Shown piece after piece: positions 16,696 through 25,103 of a stretch of DNA of 64,000 bases. The translations under genes and the position numbers were made by a program. Position 1 is the first letter of the stretch. The number at the start of each line of letters is the position of its first letter. This DNA comes from Leclercia pneumoniae (GTDB taxonomy: Bacteria > Pseudomonadota > Gammaproteobacteria > Enterobacterales > Enterobacteriaceae), in the NCBI RefSeq assembly GCF_017348915.1, contig NZ_CP071383.1, positions 3,596,001-3,660,000 on the forward strand. The letters are read 5' to 3'. Below the pieces are notes generated by a model, which worked only from the letters and a program-made list of their open reading frames with translations, searched no databases and was not told where the DNA came from.

Positions 16696-16717
16696 GCCGG
16701 GTGGTTCGCCGCCCGGC
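16696..16717. terminator. Bidirectional terminator between yghU and the ModA-like gene
   Basis: GCCGGGTGG-TTCG-CCGCCCGGC forms a stem of about 9 bp with a T/G pair and a UUCG tetraloop. It is placed between two convergent stop codons (16689 and 16719). Confidence 0.75.
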
Positions 16718-17388
16718 TATGCCTCAAATCCCGCTTCGCGTAAGATCCCCTTCGCAACCTCTGACTGTAAAAACATGCCCAGCCGCTGCCCTGCAGGGGT
16801 TATCACCGCACAGCCATACTCCGCGCAGGGGTTGTAAGGCGCCGGGAGAGGAATCACGGTTAAGCCGGGGATCGTGCGCAGCCTGGAGGCATAGCTGGCA
16901 TAGCCGATAAACAGCTCAGCCTGGCCGCTGTGGATAATCCACTCCGCCGCCAGCTTGCCCGCAGGAATCGGCGCAGAGTGTCGCCCACCGACCAGCGCCC
17001 TCGCCCGGGCTCTTACCCCCTCGCCGCTATCGCCCATGCGATCAAATAACGTCTGCGCATAATCTCCGCAAGGGTCTTCCCCCGCCGTCGAGGTGGCGAG
17101 GCGTAAATCGGCGCGGGTCAGCAGCGATAGCCAGTTATCCCCCTGCTGCAGCACATCACTGCGCACGGTCAGGCAGAGTGAATTGCGGGCGAAGGGGATG
17201 ACGGCGAGCGGATTAAGCGCCCGGGGATGGGCAAGGTTTGCCGAGGCGAAAAGGTCGCACGCTTCACCCGCCGCAATACGCTCCTGCAGCAGCCCCGCCG
17301 GGCCAAAAGCGGTCTCTACGGGCTCCGGGAAGTGGCGCAGTAACGAGGGCCAGACCCCGCGCAAACTGCCTGCCGCCAGGACGCGCAT
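16717..17388 (-). CDS. ModA-like (molybdate-binding fold) protein lacking a signal peptide
   Basis: 223 residues. The first residues MRVLAAGSLRGVWPSLLRHF correspond to the first strand and helix of the mature ModA/type II binding-protein fold. GPAGLLQERIAAGEACDLFASAN follows like the GSSGxLxxQIxxGxPxDxFxSA block of ModA, and VIPFARNSLCL like the hinge strand. No signal peptide precedes the fold, and the start cannot be moved upstream because it overlaps the stop of the previous gene (TAATG). The protein should therefore be cytoplasmic unless exported unusually. The gene forms a two-gene unit with a MolA/FecB-type binding protein behind a ModE-type operator. No permease or ATPase accompanies it. 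Family call is good; ligand and role are inferred. Confidence 0.72.
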   Translation of the reverse strand: MRVLAAGSLRGVWPSLLRHFPEPVETAFGPAGLLQERIAAGEACDLFASANLAHPRALNPLAVIPFARNSLCLTVRSDVLQQGDNWLSLLTRADLRLATSTAGEDPCGDYAQTLFDRMGDSGEGVRARARALVGGRHSAPIPAGKLAAEWIIHSGQAELFIGYASYASRLRTIPGLTVIPLPAPYNPCAEYGCAVITPAGQRLGMFLQSEVAKGILREAGFEA

Positions 17389-18440
17389 TAATCGATGCCC
17401 TGGTAGTCAGTGCGGTAAAAACGGTGATACCAGGCGTTAGCCTCTTTACGCATATCCACGTCTTTGAACTTCCCGGGATAGAGTTTTTTCGCCATCCACA
17501 ACTCGCCCAGCCCCATCGCTTCCGGCATCGGGTAACCCCAGGCTTTCGCGTAATCGGGCATCAGGTAGACGCGCTGATTTTTCACCGCATCAATGGTTTG
17601 CCATTGCGCAGAGGTTTTAATCTCATTGACCACGGAGGGGTAGCGATCCTGCACGAAAATTACCTGCGGGTTCCAGGCGATAACCTGCTCCATCGCCACG
17701 GTTTTAAAGCCCTTGATGGTGGCGGCGGCCACATTCAGCGCCCCCGCATGCGCCATCATTAAACCGGTATATTTTCCGGAGCCGTAGGTGGTTAACGCCG
17801 GGTTCGCCATATAGGCACGCACGCGCTCTGCGGCCGGGATCGCCTGCAGGCGATCGCGCACCTTTTTGCGTCCCGCGTCCGTTGCCGCAATCAGCGCCTT
17901 CGCTTCTGCCGGCTTATTCACGATCTCGCCAATCAGGGTGATCCCTTCCCGCAGCCCCAAATCGTAGGCTTTCTCTTCATCGGCTTGGGTGGGGTTCAGT
18001 TTGTCTTGTTCTCCGGGGGCGTCGTGGCGTAGCGAAATCGCCACCACCGGGATCCCAAGGCTAGCGATCTTGTCGATCATCTCCCGCGGCGCATAGTTTG
18101 TGACAAACACCACCTGCGGTTTTAGCGCAACCAGCTTTTCCGGATCCACATGGGTGAGATCGCCGAGCATGGGTTTCTGGTTCAGCTCGGGCGCAAGGCG
18201 GGCATAGCCATCGCCGAGTTGTTGCTTCCAGTTCGCCATCACCCCAACGATTTTATCGCTGGCGTTCATTTGCACCAGCAAGTTCAGCGTCTGGTGCTGC
18301 AGTACCACCACGCGATTCACCTCATCCGGGATCGTCACCTGACGACCAATCTGGTCGGTAATCTGGCGCGACGCCTGAGAAGAGAGCGGAGAAATGGCCA
18401 GAAAAAGAAAAGGTAATACCTGCCAAAAACGCTGTTTCAT
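17388..18440 (-). CDS. MolA/FecB-type periplasmic metal(oxyanion) or siderophore-binding protein
   Basis: 350 residues with a signal peptide (MKQRFWQVLPFLFLAISPLS, cleavage after SSQA). The class III periplasmic-binding fold starts with RQITDQIGRQVTIPDEVNRVVVL and has the mid-protein DLTHVDPEKLVALKPQVVFV and late FKTVAMEQVIAWNPQVIFV blocks typical of FecB/BtuF relatives. The length is that of Haemophilus MolA, a molybdate/tungstate-binding member of the class. No permease gene adjoins it, so it must feed a transporter encoded elsewhere. A ModE-type palindrome overlaps its promoter, which argues for molybdate or a Mo complex rather than iron; there is no Fur-like box. GAGG lies 5 nt before the ATG. 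Confidence 0.75.
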   Translation of the reverse strand: MKQRFWQVLPFLFLAISPLSSQASRQITDQIGRQVTIPDEVNRVVVLQHQTLNLLVQMNASDKIVGVMANWKQQLGDGYARLAPELNQKPMLGDLTHVDPEKLVALKPQVVFVTNYAPREMIDKIASLGIPVVAISLRHDAPGEQDKLNPTQADEEKAYDLGLREGITLIGEIVNKPAEAKALIAATDAGRKKVRDRLQAIPAAERVRAYMANPALTTYGSGKYTGLMMAHAGALNVAAATIKGFKTVAMEQVIAWNPQVIFVQDRYPSVVNEIKTSAQWQTIDAVKNQRVYLMPDYAKAWGYPMPEAMGLGELWMAKKLYPGKFKDVDMRKEANAWYHRFYRTDYQGID

Positions 18441-18454
18441 CGTAGCCTCACATT

Positions 18455-18478
18455 CGTTATGTAATTTATTATATAACG
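18455..18478 (-). promoter_or_regulatory. ModE-type operator overlapping the promoter of the MolA-like/ModA-like pair
   Basis: CGTTATGTA-N6-TATATAACG is an almost perfect palindrome (one mismatch per 9-bp arm). It agrees with the ModE box known from the E. coli modA operator (CGTTATRTA-N6-TAYATAACG type). On the minus strand a -10 (TATAAT) lies inside the box, with GGGACA 18 nt upstream as a -35. ModE-molybdate bound here would cover the -10 and repress, leaving the genes on when molybdate is scarce. The box ends 14 nt before the start codon. Confidence 0.75.
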
Positions 18479-18609
18479 ATTGCGCGCCGCGTGTCCCGGC
18501 CCCTTTAGAGGTAGAGCGGGCAGGCGTGCCTTAACGCAAATCCCTCTCTTTTTTCAACGGCATGTTTACAACCATCCGGTAATCGCGCAAGAATCATTCT
18601 TATTTACCG

Positions 18610-19605
18610 ATGAGCCTTTTCATGTCAGAGCAGGCGTTAAGACAACAGATTCAGAATCTCAAAAAGCACAATGCCCGGCTCGTCAGGCTAGCACGTGACG
18701 CCCGCAGTAAGCTGAGCGCTGCGCTGGACGGGACGGGTCTCTGTCTCTGGCAGCTGGATATTCCCAGCGGCAAGCTGATTATCTATAACCGCCGATGGGG
18801 TTCGATGCTGGGCTATCAGCCGAAAGAGCTTAGCGCCCAGTTTGAGGTCTGGCGGGAGCACCTCCATCCCGATGACAAGCAAGACGTGCTGGACGCGTTT
18901 TACGATCATCTGAACGGTAAGACCCCCTTCTATGAAGCGCTGCACCGTATGCAGCACAGAAACGGTACCATCACCTGGGTGCTTGACCGGGGCCGCGTGA
19001 CCGAATGGGATGAAAACGGCGCGCCGCTGAAGGTGACCGGCACCCATATTGATATGACCAAAGAGAAGCAGTACGAAGAGCAGTTGGCGCAGCTGGCTAA
19101 CCACGACCCGCTCACCGGGCTGGCTAACCGTCATGCGCTGCTGCAACACTTTGAACAGCTTAAAGCCCACGGTCCGCTGTGCGTGGCCTTTATTGATCTT
19201 GATGATTTCAAAGACGTTAACGACGCCTTCGGACACCGCAGCGGTGACGAACTGCTGATCCAGCTTAGCCAGCGTTTACGGGAAAGCTGCCCACCAGACA
19301 GCATCGTCGGGCGTCTCGGTGGCGACGAATTTGTGCTTTTACTCCCCCTTGCACTCTCCAGCCTGCAGGTGACGCGCATTGCTCAGCAGTGTCTGCACGC
19401 CGCCCTCACCCCCTTTGAGCTGGACAATGGCCAGGCGCGGGTGGGCGCGTCGGTGGGCATTGATGAGGTGCAGGAGGAGGATGACTTTGTGAATGCCCTC
19501 AAGCGCGCCGATCGGTCGATGTATCAGATCAAACATACCGGTAAAAACGGCGTCGCCCTCGGGCAGACGCCCCTCTCTCTCCCCCGTCTGGAAACCGGAA
19601 CATGA
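18610..19605 (+). CDS. PAS-GGDEF diguanylate cyclase
   Basis: 331 residues and soluble. A short N-terminal coiled coil (residues 6-32, QALRQQIQNLKKHNARLVRL) leads into a PAS domain of about residues 38-155 (WGSMLGYQPKEL, HPDDK, GTHIDMTKEKQYEEQ). The GGDEF domain runs from about 162 to 320 with the intact active site GRLGGDEF (237-241) and DPLTGLANR. It should make c-di-GMP. The usual product-inhibition site R-x-x-D five residues before GGDEF is C-P-P-D here, so feedback inhibition is probably lost. An alternative ATG four codons in (18622) has a slightly better upstream GAG. Its stop overlaps the start of the FucR-like gene by 4 nt. Confidence 0.9.
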   Translation: MSLFMSEQALRQQIQNLKKHNARLVRLARDARSKLSAALDGTGLCLWQLDIPSGKLIIYNRRWGSMLGYQPKELSAQFEVWREHLHPDDKQDVLDAFYDHLNGKTPFYEALHRMQHRNGTITWVLDRGRVTEWDENGAPLKVTGTHIDMTKEKQYEEQLAQLANHDPLTGLANRHALLQHFEQLKAHGPLCVAFIDLDDFKDVNDAFGHRSGDELLIQLSQRLRESCPPDSIVGRLGGDEFVLLLPLALSSLQVTRIAQQCLHAALTPFELDNGQARVGASVGIDEVQEEDDFVNALKRADRSMYQIKHTGKNGVALGQTPLSLPRLETGT

Positions 19606-22502: not shown

Positions 22503-25103
22503 ATGCGTCATTCCGTAAAACGGACAGTATTGTCACAATGTGTATTACTGGCTTTAACATCTTTCGCCGCGCAGGCCTAGGCGGGCACCGCCATCCCTTG
22601 TCAAAATGGTGATACGACCCAAACCTGCGGCCTCTCCCATTACGATGACGGCAATTATTATCAGGATAAGGGCGCGACTAACGCCGTTATGGCCGATAAA
22701 ACCGCAACCGATATCTATATGGATGGTCACCGCTCGCCAACCGATAGCCAAACCTTAACCGTCTCTGGCACGGATATGACAGGCTATTATATTCAGGGCA
22801 GTACCGGCGGTACCGCCAATATTAATGTCACCAATAACGCTAAGGTGGATATGGTCGAAGTCGGATCGGCTAAGGATACTACCAATACTACGGTCAATAT
22901 CGATCATGCCACCCTGAACGGTGAAAACAGCGCGATCGAATACGGCGGGAAAAATAAAAGCTATATGATGGGCGCCGCCATCTATGTTGACCCTCTTGAT
23001 AAGGGGGCCCACAACGTGAATGTCAGCAATGGCAGTGTCCTGCACGGCAGTATTATCAGCGCGGGGGCGGGCACGCAAAATATTGCTATCAGTAATAGCA
23101 CCATGGACAACGCCGGCATTTATACCGGCAGTGCCACTTCGGATGTCACCGTCTCGCTGACCAACGCCACTCTCGACGCCAGCAACAGCCAGGTGGCGAA
23201 GAAGATGAAAACACTCGTGGACACACTGAGTAAGACCGAACCGTTCAGCGATATCAACCTGGATGCCTTTAGCGATGTGGCGATTGCGATGTATGGCACT
23301 ACCCACGAAAGTTTAACCCTGAATAACAGTACCGTGACCGGGGATGTGGGCATCATCAATGATAAAGGTCAGGTCGATCTCTCAGTCACGAATAACAGCG
23401 TGGTGAATGGCAATGTCACCCTCAACGGCAACGCCACCGACACCATACTGGTAGATAACAGCACCATTAATGGTGATGTGAATACCAGCCAGAATAGCGG
23501 CAATACCACGGTTACCCTGCAAAATAACGCCAACGTCAATGGCGATATCACCACCGGCACCGGCAACGATACCGTCGTGCTGGTCAATAACTCCCACGTC
23601 AGCGGCAACGTGTCAGGCGGCGACGGCACCGATACCCTATCCATGGATGCGGGCAGCTCTATATCCGGGCAGATTAATCAGTTCGAAACCATCAACACCA
23701 CCAGCGCGAACAGCATTACTATCGATACTATTAACGATGCCACGAGCTGGAATCTACAAAATGGCTCACGTCTTGTCTCCGCTACCACGGGCAGTAATGC
23801 CGTTGTGAATATGAGTACCGATAGCTTTGTCGATTTCGGCCAGATTACCGGCAGCGACAACGCGGTCGTGGTGAATAACATCACCCCCTCGGCGCTGAAT
23901 CAGCAAAACCTGGTGATCGGCACCTTTACGACAAACACAGAGGGTGCGCCACAAGATTACGCAGCCGCCCGTTTTACCAATGGTGAGCAGCAGGTTGAGA
24001 ACCGGAGTGGAGCCTATAACTACGATAACAGCCTGGACATTGTCGCCGCCAATGGGGATGTCACCCCGCAAACGCTGCTCGCCGCAGACAACAGCCAGAG
24101 CTGGAATATCGTCTTTAACAGTGAGCGAGGCTCTCTGGCGAGCGATGTTCAGGGGCTGATCGCCGGGCTGGATGCCGCCGAACAGGCGGGCCACCAGGTC
24201 ACCGACGACATCACCAGTCACCTGGATCGTCTGCATCTTGCTGCCCTGACCGGGACGCAGCAGGAGGGGGCGCAGGTATGGGGAGATTTCCTCTATCAGA
24301 ACGGCACCTTCAGCAACGATGTGGATTACACCAGCATCACCCAGGGCGCGCAGGGCGGCGTTGACTGGACGCACGCGCTCGCCAACGGTGACAGCGTGAC
24401 CGGCGGTGTCGCCCTGGCCTGGACCCGCAGTCGCGTGGATGATACCCAGAGCGGCCCGGATAGCTTCAAAGATACCGTCTACGGTAACTATTACAGCCTT
24501 TATGGCGGCTGGGAGCAGGCAATGAATGGCCGTGACTGGGGCCTGTTCGCGGACGGTAGCTTCAGCTATGGCGATATGCGCTACACCCTCTCCGCCAACA
24601 ACGTGACCGGCAACACCAGCGGCATGACCGAAGCTCTGCACGGTTCCACCGACGGCAACCTGTATATGGCGCAGGCGCGTGCTGGGGTGAACGTGCTCCT
24701 GCCAGGGGAGACGCTGCTACAGCCGTACGCCATTCTTGGCTGGGATCAGACCAAAGCCAACGGCTTCTCTGACAAGGAGGTGACCTTCGCCGACAGCCAG
24801 GTCTCCTCCTGGAACGGCGGCGCAGGGCTGCGTCTCTCCACCACCCTCACCGATCTCAATAAGAACGTGCAGATCACCCCCTGGGTGGATGCCCGCTTCC
24901 AGAAAGAGTTCAGCGATGATACGGATATCCAGGCGGCGGATTATCACAATACTCAGGGTCATAACAATACGATGGGCATGTTCGGTGCGGGGATCAACGC
25001 CACTGTTGCCCATAACTTCTCGGTCAATACGGGCATTTACTATGGCACCGGCGATGTGGATAACGACGCCAGCGTGCAGGCCGGTTTAAGCTATAGCTTC
25101 TGA
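22503..25103 (+). pseudogene. Autotransporter (type Va) with an in-frame TAG at the signal-peptide junction
   Basis: From the ATG at 22503 (AGAGGA 6 nt upstream) the frame encodes a signal peptide, MRHSVKRTVLSQCVLLALTS then FAAQA. Codon 26 is TAG (22578-22580), and the frame then stays open to 25103 (866 codons in all). The passenger (to about residue 560) is rich in N/T/S and has beta-helix-like repeats of the NNSxVNGDV / NNSHVSGNVSGGDGTD type. The C-terminal barrel (about 600-866) ends in GLSYSF with the terminal phenylalanine used by BamA. The first ATG after the stop (22689) would make a product without a signal peptide, which could not be exported. Unless suppressed, the gene is inactive. 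The rest shows no decay, so the mutation looks recent. Confidence 0.85.

Follow-up and report, generated by a model that had tools for sequence, protein, structure and literature searches.

A ModE-type operator precedes a permease-less molA and modA-like gene pair in Leclercia pneumoniae, a candidate capture half of a split molybdenum importer

The window analysed here is a 64,000-nucleotide stretch of the Leclercia pneumoniae genome (contig NZ_CP071383.1, positions 3,596,001 to 3,660,000). It carries a two-gene unit that encodes a class III periplasmic binding protein, identified below as an orthologue of MolA, and a ModA-like protein, behind a palindrome that resembles the operator of the molybdate-responsive repressor ModE (Table 1). 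The stop codon of molA and the start codon of the ModA-like gene overlap by one base, and the pair lies between a yghU-type gene and a divergent PAS-GGDEF gene. No FecCD permease was found beside the pair in the window, and molB and molC were absent from the locus, bearing out the description, in an earlier note on this DNA, of a pair without adjacent transporter subunits. The dipeptide-type ATP-binding cassette (ABC) transporter genes at 11–15.6 kb lie beyond yghU and form a separate system.

Table 1 Features of the molA locus in the window and of the candidate partner permease elsewhere in the genome
Feature	Position	Strand	Remarks
ModE operator-like palindrome, CGTTATGTA-N6-TATATAACG	18455-18478	+ (strand of reading)	half sites agree at 8/9 positions; 0 mismatches to the scan pattern
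Promoter-like sequence, GGGACA-18-TATAAT	18468-18497	-	10/12 consensus matches, the match alone being no evidence of function; -10 inside the operator
molA orthologue, class III periplasmic binding protein, 350 amino acids	17388-18440	-	PF01497 (Peripla_BP_2), 101.8 bits
Signal-less ModA-like protein, 223 amino acids	16717-17388	-	PF13531 (SBP_bac_11), 99.5 bits
Candidate FecCD permease and ATPase	638155-639998 of the genome		siderophore type; FecCD at 638928-639998
Binding protein of the candidate permease	637005-638129 of the genome		adjoins the candidate permease

The best solved relative of the window MolA was HI_1472 (PDB 3psa/3psh; 435.7 bits, E 1.1e-129), and the next scored 109.8 bits. 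The two proteins share 61% identity over the mature protein, and the N-terminus of the window protein resembles a signal peptide by eye. Sequence comparison thus confirmed the putatively secreted binding protein as a MolA orthologue, and the MolA-type assignment made at first reading was retained, with HI_1472 as the closest solved class III relative. The ModA-like open reading frame (ORF) was taken to begin at the first start codon that follows a stop, and therefore there is no room upstream for a signal peptide. Its product scored below the cut-off of TIGR01256 (ModA; 26.7 vs 62.5) and below those of the PRK03537-family models (286.9 vs 383 for NF002915, the nearest, and 279.8 vs 288 for NF002918). 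A relative from the MolBC-linked locus L125 passed NF002916 (508.1 vs 359), and the PDB matches of the window protein were weak and were to archaeal molybdate/tungstate binding proteins. In 85 of 107 ORF records, in which some genes occur twice, and in 64 of 80 for L081–L162, an AAGSL-like motif begins at or before residue 12; among the remaining 22 records, 21 have a Met 4–9 residues before the motif and one, L138, has none. The PAG, STxxxDPxGDY-like and GY motifs were invariant in a 21-row alignment. As judged from these comparisons, the second protein is a ModA relative without a signal peptide and with a short N-terminus across the family, as the signal-less partner described in the earlier note would have it. 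ModABC, whose genes are also present in this genome, shares the operator type of the pair, whereas its ModA is secreted and works with ModBC and the ModA-like protein of the window has no signal peptide.

The whole genome (4.4 Mb) was scanned with the pattern CGNTATNNA-N6-TANATAACG, and mismatches were counted. The operator in the window was the only zero-mismatch site in the genome and matched on both strands, and three one-mismatch sites were found, before modA, moaA and a DmsA-like gene. At the modA site, modE lies divergent to modA; modABC is present, and ModE is encoded in the genome (485.3 bits, cut-off 369). The third site sits between serS and the DmsA-like gene (SerS and DmsA were named by eye). 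At three or fewer mismatches, the pattern was near background, with 160 forward and 148 reverse sites vs 141 and 133 in the control. Conservation was assessed in 82 loci, namely the window, L081–L160 and the E. coli locus L161 (a second E. coli copy, L162, was dropped), with permease-less and operon loci taken together, a box threshold of at least 14 of the 18 fixed positions, and random stretches of the same loci as the control. A box was found upstream of molA in 78 of the 82 loci, compared with 4 of 820 control stretches and 0 of 820 dinucleotide shuffles. In a second, named collection, 72 of 80 molA loci had the box, and three Lonsdalea loci were among the eight without it. The window palindrome, which lies over the promoter, fits the form of the ModE consensus ATCGNTATATA-N6-TATATANCGAT as printed in PMC545781. 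These results support a ModE-type operator upstream of the pair, to which ModE is predicted to bind; the ModE-type palindrome over the -10 of a two-gene unit, as originally proposed, was confirmed by the whole-genome scan and by its conservation.

MolA was detected at E 1e-60 in 86 of 295 family genomes. The MolA neighbourhood was read in 81 cases (the window and L081–L160), and G050, G078, G170, G188 and G232 were placed by coordinates, with G050 assigned only by the presence of MolB on another contig. A true MolB accompanies MolA in 45 genomes, and the loci read among these mostly carry the ModA-like gene and MolC as well. In 41 genomes (the window and the 40 permease-less loci read), no FecCD was found next to MolA, and a true MolB, with at least 59% identity to the query MolB, occurred in 0 of these 41 permease-less family genomes, some of which gave weaker FecCD matches (41–49%). 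The window's own genome had no match to true MolB at E 1e-60. The ModA-like gene was present in all permease-less family loci except L105, at a distance of ~2.4 kb in L082, and the pair occupied 14 context clusters among the 40 permease-less loci. Permease-less molA with no ModA-like gene detected in the stretch was seen at L105, L241, L259, L277, L291 and L294. The named collection comprised the best 80 of 275 MolA relatives, so that nearest kin are favoured in it; these 80 came from Enterobacter, Leclercia, Lelliottia, Pantoea, Erwinia, Cedecea, Proteus, Rahnella, Lonsdalea and others, and no FecCD was found in their stretches, some of which end at contig ends. From gene order, the ancestral unit looks like one of four genes, molA-molB-molC-modA-like, and the pair of the window appears to derive, with loss of the permease genes, from a molABC and modA cluster.

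One genome, presumably of a Haemophilus, encodes a MolA with 91% identity to HI_1472 and has the order box-molA-molB-molC-ModA-like, with the box (L337 7120–7143, 15/18) just upstream of molA. This four-gene order fits the HI1469–HI1472 cluster of H. influenzae, in which molABC and modA are described, in PMC3928620 and PMC4031551, as a secondary molybdenum transporter. According to PMC4031551, molybdate represses molB of H. influenzae 10-fold, with a coupling factor that its authors describe as unknown; the affinity of MolA for free molybdate is weak, about 100 µM, as cited in PMC3928620. The claim of the earlier note that no system of this composition has been described was therefore not right, since H. 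influenzae molABC with modA (HI1469) is such a system. MolA of MolABC (HI1470–1472), which goes with HI1469, is orthologous to that of the window, whereas the window pair lacks the molB and molC genes present in H. influenzae. The box suggests ModE as a candidate for the molybdate-responsive control of Haemophilus molABC, and it lies in AT-rich DNA, where it is weaker evidence. Two loci of the same family as L337, L338 and L339, carry molA, but not MolBC, downstream of a 14/18 box-like site, and the L339 copy has an internal stop. Neither a permease-less MolA pair nor a ModE-controlled TonB receptor was found among the matches listed from the open-access literature, as judged by titles and abstract starts.

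The two forms of the locus were also separated in a MolA tree of 91 rows (quick search, midpoint root, with L162 and the broken L339 left out). The 43 permease-less rows formed one side of a branch with a Shimodaira–Hasegawa-like approximate likelihood ratio test (SH-aLRT) value of 92, and the E. coli copy fell among them; the other side held L338, which is permease-less, together with 47 operon rows. Three comparisons with the window gave ratios of nonsynonymous to synonymous substitution (dN/dS) of 0.05–0.07 for molA and 0.05–0.15 for the ModA-like gene, and these ratios are rough because synonymous sites are near saturation. Stops were seen inside molA of G659, a member of the window's genus, and a stop in the copy of G651, a member of another family. 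A large share of MolA residues is common to the permease-less and operon groups. Two glutamates, E101 and E251, one per lobe, are kept in at least 95% of the 91 rows and are presumed, by analogy with BtuF, to be docking residues. The stretch around E101 differs by group, being mostly VNIESLL in the operon rows and mostly VDxE[KS]LV in the permease-less rows.

Ten FecCD-family stretches were found in the window's genome. One of them, the siderophore-type FecCD with its ATPase listed in Table 1, was compared as the candidate partner of the pair, from which it lies ~2.97 Mb along contig 1, or ~1.4 Mb the other way if the contig is circular. In E. coli, the pair was found in 46 (distant search) or 45 (near search) of 5426 genomes and the permease-ATPase in 45 of 5426, the lists not being matched row by row. 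In both E. coli records read, the pair is divergent to a FecCD permease and ATPase, with one box between them. This E. coli permease is 65% identical to the candidate FecCD and 30–37% identical to the six other FecCDs that gave matches among the loci compared. Its identification as a true MolB was rejected, as it is 32–37% identical to MolBC-linked MolBs vs 65% to the siderophore-type FecCD. The segment around E101 in permease-less MolA also resembles the corresponding segment in the binding proteins that belong to the permease (VDxE[KS]LV and VSPEKVL against VNIESLL), a likeness that is suggestive only.

Across the family, all 41 permease-less genomes had the siderophore-type FecCD, compared with 25 of 45 genomes with MolBC and 60 of 209 without MolA, after one 47% match, in G174, had been dropped. 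Among the 61 genomes of the window's genus, MolA was found in 29 (including one copy with stops, one partial copy and one split over contigs) and FecCD in 30; both were present in 29 genomes, FecCD only in one (G698), MolA only in none and neither in 31 (Fisher p 1.4e-16, kinship ignored). A tree of the serS region covered 50 of the 61 genomes, namely all 31 with neither gene, G698 and 18 of the 29 with both. On this tree, MolA and FecCD each change 7 times, and in 6 independent pairs over supported branches FecCD changes in the same direction as MolA in an average of 5.5 and in the opposite direction in none (sign test, median p 0.031, range 0.031–0.063). MolA and FecCD also occur in the same two of three genomes in the genus of G207. 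The FecCD is 85–100% identical to that of the window's genome in 28 of the 29 genus genomes with MolA; the 29th, G709, has a 73% identical FecCD with an ATPase between proP-like and rcnA-like genes (names by eye). The comparison supports the suggestion that a FepDG/BtuCD-type permease encoded elsewhere may serve the pair, and its specific candidate is the FecCD-ATPase at 638–640 kb.

Sixty-two loci of this permease type were read, comprising 41 of 41 from permease-less genomes, 7 of 25 from genomes with MolBC, 13 of 60 from genomes without MolA and one E. coli record. A box of 16–17/18 was found at the promoter of the permease operon in eight genomes and in E. coli. In G134, G042, G009, G074 and G216, the order is box-TonB receptor-binding protein-FecCD-ATPase, and the receptors of G134 and G009 passed a TonB siderophore receptor model (299.3 and 294.3 vs 223.5). 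Such ModE-boxed TonB operons lie at L187 6360–8537 and in L191, L202, L203 and L205 (box 16–17/18), those in L187, L202 and L203 between aroG- and gpmA-like genes. In G207, G281 and G260, the order is box-FecCD-ATPase with no binding protein found, and all three genomes carry the permease-less MolA pair. G709 has a 16/18 box that ends 43 bases before the FecCD start codon, again with no binding protein found, and G200 has a marginal 14/18 box 182 bases upstream. Nine box-bearing FecCDs form one clade (SH-aLRT 98), in which G709 is not included and outside which the window's FecCD falls. No own binding protein was found beside the permease in 19 of 41 permease-less loci (G196 and G270 among them lying near contig ends), 0 of 7 MolBC-linked loci and 5 of 13 MolA-free loci. 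An enrichment of permeases without a binding protein in permease-less genomes was rejected on recount. The candidate partner belongs to the known type of FecCD-ATPase-binding protein siderophore transporters, whose binding protein is nearest to PRK14048 (ferrichrome/ferrioxamine B), and its relatives differ from the usual members in two respects, namely the ModE-like box that precedes the permease in one clade and the lack of an adjacent binding protein, none being found in G207, G281, G260, G709 and E. coli. Boxed permeases without a binding protein, together with the co-occurrence, are as expected if MolA and the permease cooperate, with both under the control of ModE in some lineages. In G043 (L169 7592–8555), a 15/18 box precedes a gene for a WtpA-like binding protein (107.6 bits, cut-off 355), and this gene follows immediately after the FecCD-ATPase-binding protein genes.

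We consider it somewhat probable, at roughly 0.58, that the pair supplies the capture half of a MolABC-type molybdenum importer that has been split and has swapped its permease, and that it feeds an unlinked siderophore-type FecCD-ATPase. Comparison between genomes has shown the elements on which this proposal is built: the operator and its conservation, the identity of MolA, the absence of MolBC, the co-occurrence and parallel change of the permease, and the box on the permease type in some relatives. ModE leaves its operator under molybdenum starvation, and the pair would then be transcribed. MolA would take a molybdenum species in the periplasm and would dock, via a conserved glutamate in each lobe, on a BtuCD-type importer other than MolBC. 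This importer would be a FecCD permease with an ATPase of siderophore-transporter descent, here the one in Table 1; it adjoins its own binding protein, so that the permease would serve two binding proteins. In the cytoplasm, where it would stay, the ModA-like protein would receive, buffer or gauge the incoming oxyanion. We infer ModE binding, docking, transport and the ligand, as well as the role of the ModA-like protein as a buffer, carrier or transporter gate. The cargo may be molybdate or a molybdenum chelate.

Several observations weigh against this proposal. The co-occurrence could come from a shared lifestyle, and the 11 genomes of the genus that lie outside the serS-region tree all carry MolA. 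The permease is present in the 60 of 209 MolA-free genomes and stands alone in G698, and therefore it has other work. It belongs to a family of iron-siderophore type, and in 30 of 41 permease-less genomes it lies in a lysP/cirA context (CirA identified by model in L175, other names by eye), which suggests an iron-catecholate role. Boxed permease operons were found in 5 of 41 loci from permease-less genomes, compared with 2 of 7 loci from MolBC genomes and 1 of 13 from MolA-free genomes, and therefore boxes are not commoner with permease-less MolA. The permease of the window's genome has its own binding protein and no ModE-like box (best 11–12/18); likewise, no box was found at the 28 genus FecCD loci and G698 (best 10–11), nearly all of which have an adjoining binding protein. 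The loss of the binding protein beside a boxed permease tracks permease-less MolA weakly (4/6 vs 0/3, p 0.17, G709 not counted).

A tentative extension, which we regard as possible but well short of an even chance, is that the cargo in nature is chelated molybdenum, as a Mo-catecholate or a like compound, which would pass from a TonB receptor to MolA or a sister binding protein and on to the FecCD-ATPase, under ModE. Such a cargo would explain the weak reported affinity for free molybdate. For the scavenging of Mo-siderophore complexes, raised in the earlier note, the support is indirect only and comes from relatives of the permease that occur in ModE-boxed operons together with a TonB siderophore receptor. 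If true, this would constitute a molybdophore route in Enterobacterales, in which the ModE-boxed TonB operons (L187, L203) import a Mo-siderophore. Chelated-molybdenum uptake in enterobacteria thereby becomes testable with named genes, namely MolA, FecCD-ATPase and the ModE-boxed TonB receptor. The split importer, if true, would be a case, followed through many species, of a binding protein that lost its own importer and took over an unlinked importer of a different transport family, and ModE is proposed as the missing regulator of Haemophilus molABC.

MolA might instead feed one or more other BtuCD-type importers (BtuCD, FepDGC, FhuBC or FecCDE), its link with the siderophore-type FecCD being indirect. 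The genome offers ten FecCD-family stretches, and the two presumed docking glutamates would suit any BtuCD-type importer; we nevertheless judge this unlikely, as it is the siderophore-type FecCD that covaries with MolA (the covariation data concern this FecCD only), lies adjacent to the pair in E. coli and is ModE-boxed in some relatives. It is also conceivable that no transport is involved: MolA might buffer or sense molybdate in the periplasm, and the ModA-like protein might store or gauge it in the cytoplasm. Three observations would agree with this: no FecCD was found next to the pair in any of the 40 permease-less loci read besides the window, the ModA-like N-terminus is short throughout the family, and PAS-GGDEF and methyl-accepting chemotaxis protein (MCP) genes lie near some pairs. 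However, the presumed docking glutamates are conserved, MolA covaries with a permease, some relatives (e.g., L105) have MolA without a nearby ModA-like gene, and the GGDEF/MCP neighbours are not the same genes across genomes, so that we find this rather improbable; nothing was found in support of the sensing role that the earlier note had raised.

A change of ligand, for example to a ferric chelate, with the old ModE operator merely retained, would account for the presumed partner permease being of siderophore type, as are its own binding proteins and TonB receptors. We hold this to be more doubtful still, given that the ModE-like operator is kept before molA in both groups and also occurs on the permease in some genomes, and that a large share of MolA residues is common to both groups. 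That the pair is a decaying molABC relic kept by inertia was already disfavoured and seems very improbable: the permease genes are gone from the locus, stops interrupt molA in G659 and one stop the G651 copy, but the low dN/dS of both genes in the three comparisons, the operator kept in nearly all of the 82 loci, and the 14 context clusters all speak against it.

Other genes near the pair were noted. The PAS-GGDEF diguanylate cyclase gene (window 18610–19605) is divergent to molA. In Mangrovibacter (L099–L101, L273, L275 and L276), a 65–67% identical relative of the window GGDEF protein lies on the opposite side of the pair, and Rahnella and Lonsdalea have weaker GGDEF or MCP neighbours. The GGDEF/MCP neighbours were rejected as evidence, since different genes lie on different sides across genomes. 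In G594, an extra palindrome (L346 9789–9812, 16/18) lies between a GGDEF gene and an MCP gene. Further along the window, at 22689–25103, an autotransporter is encoded, with a beta-domain of 91.4 bits and a repetitive-looking passenger.

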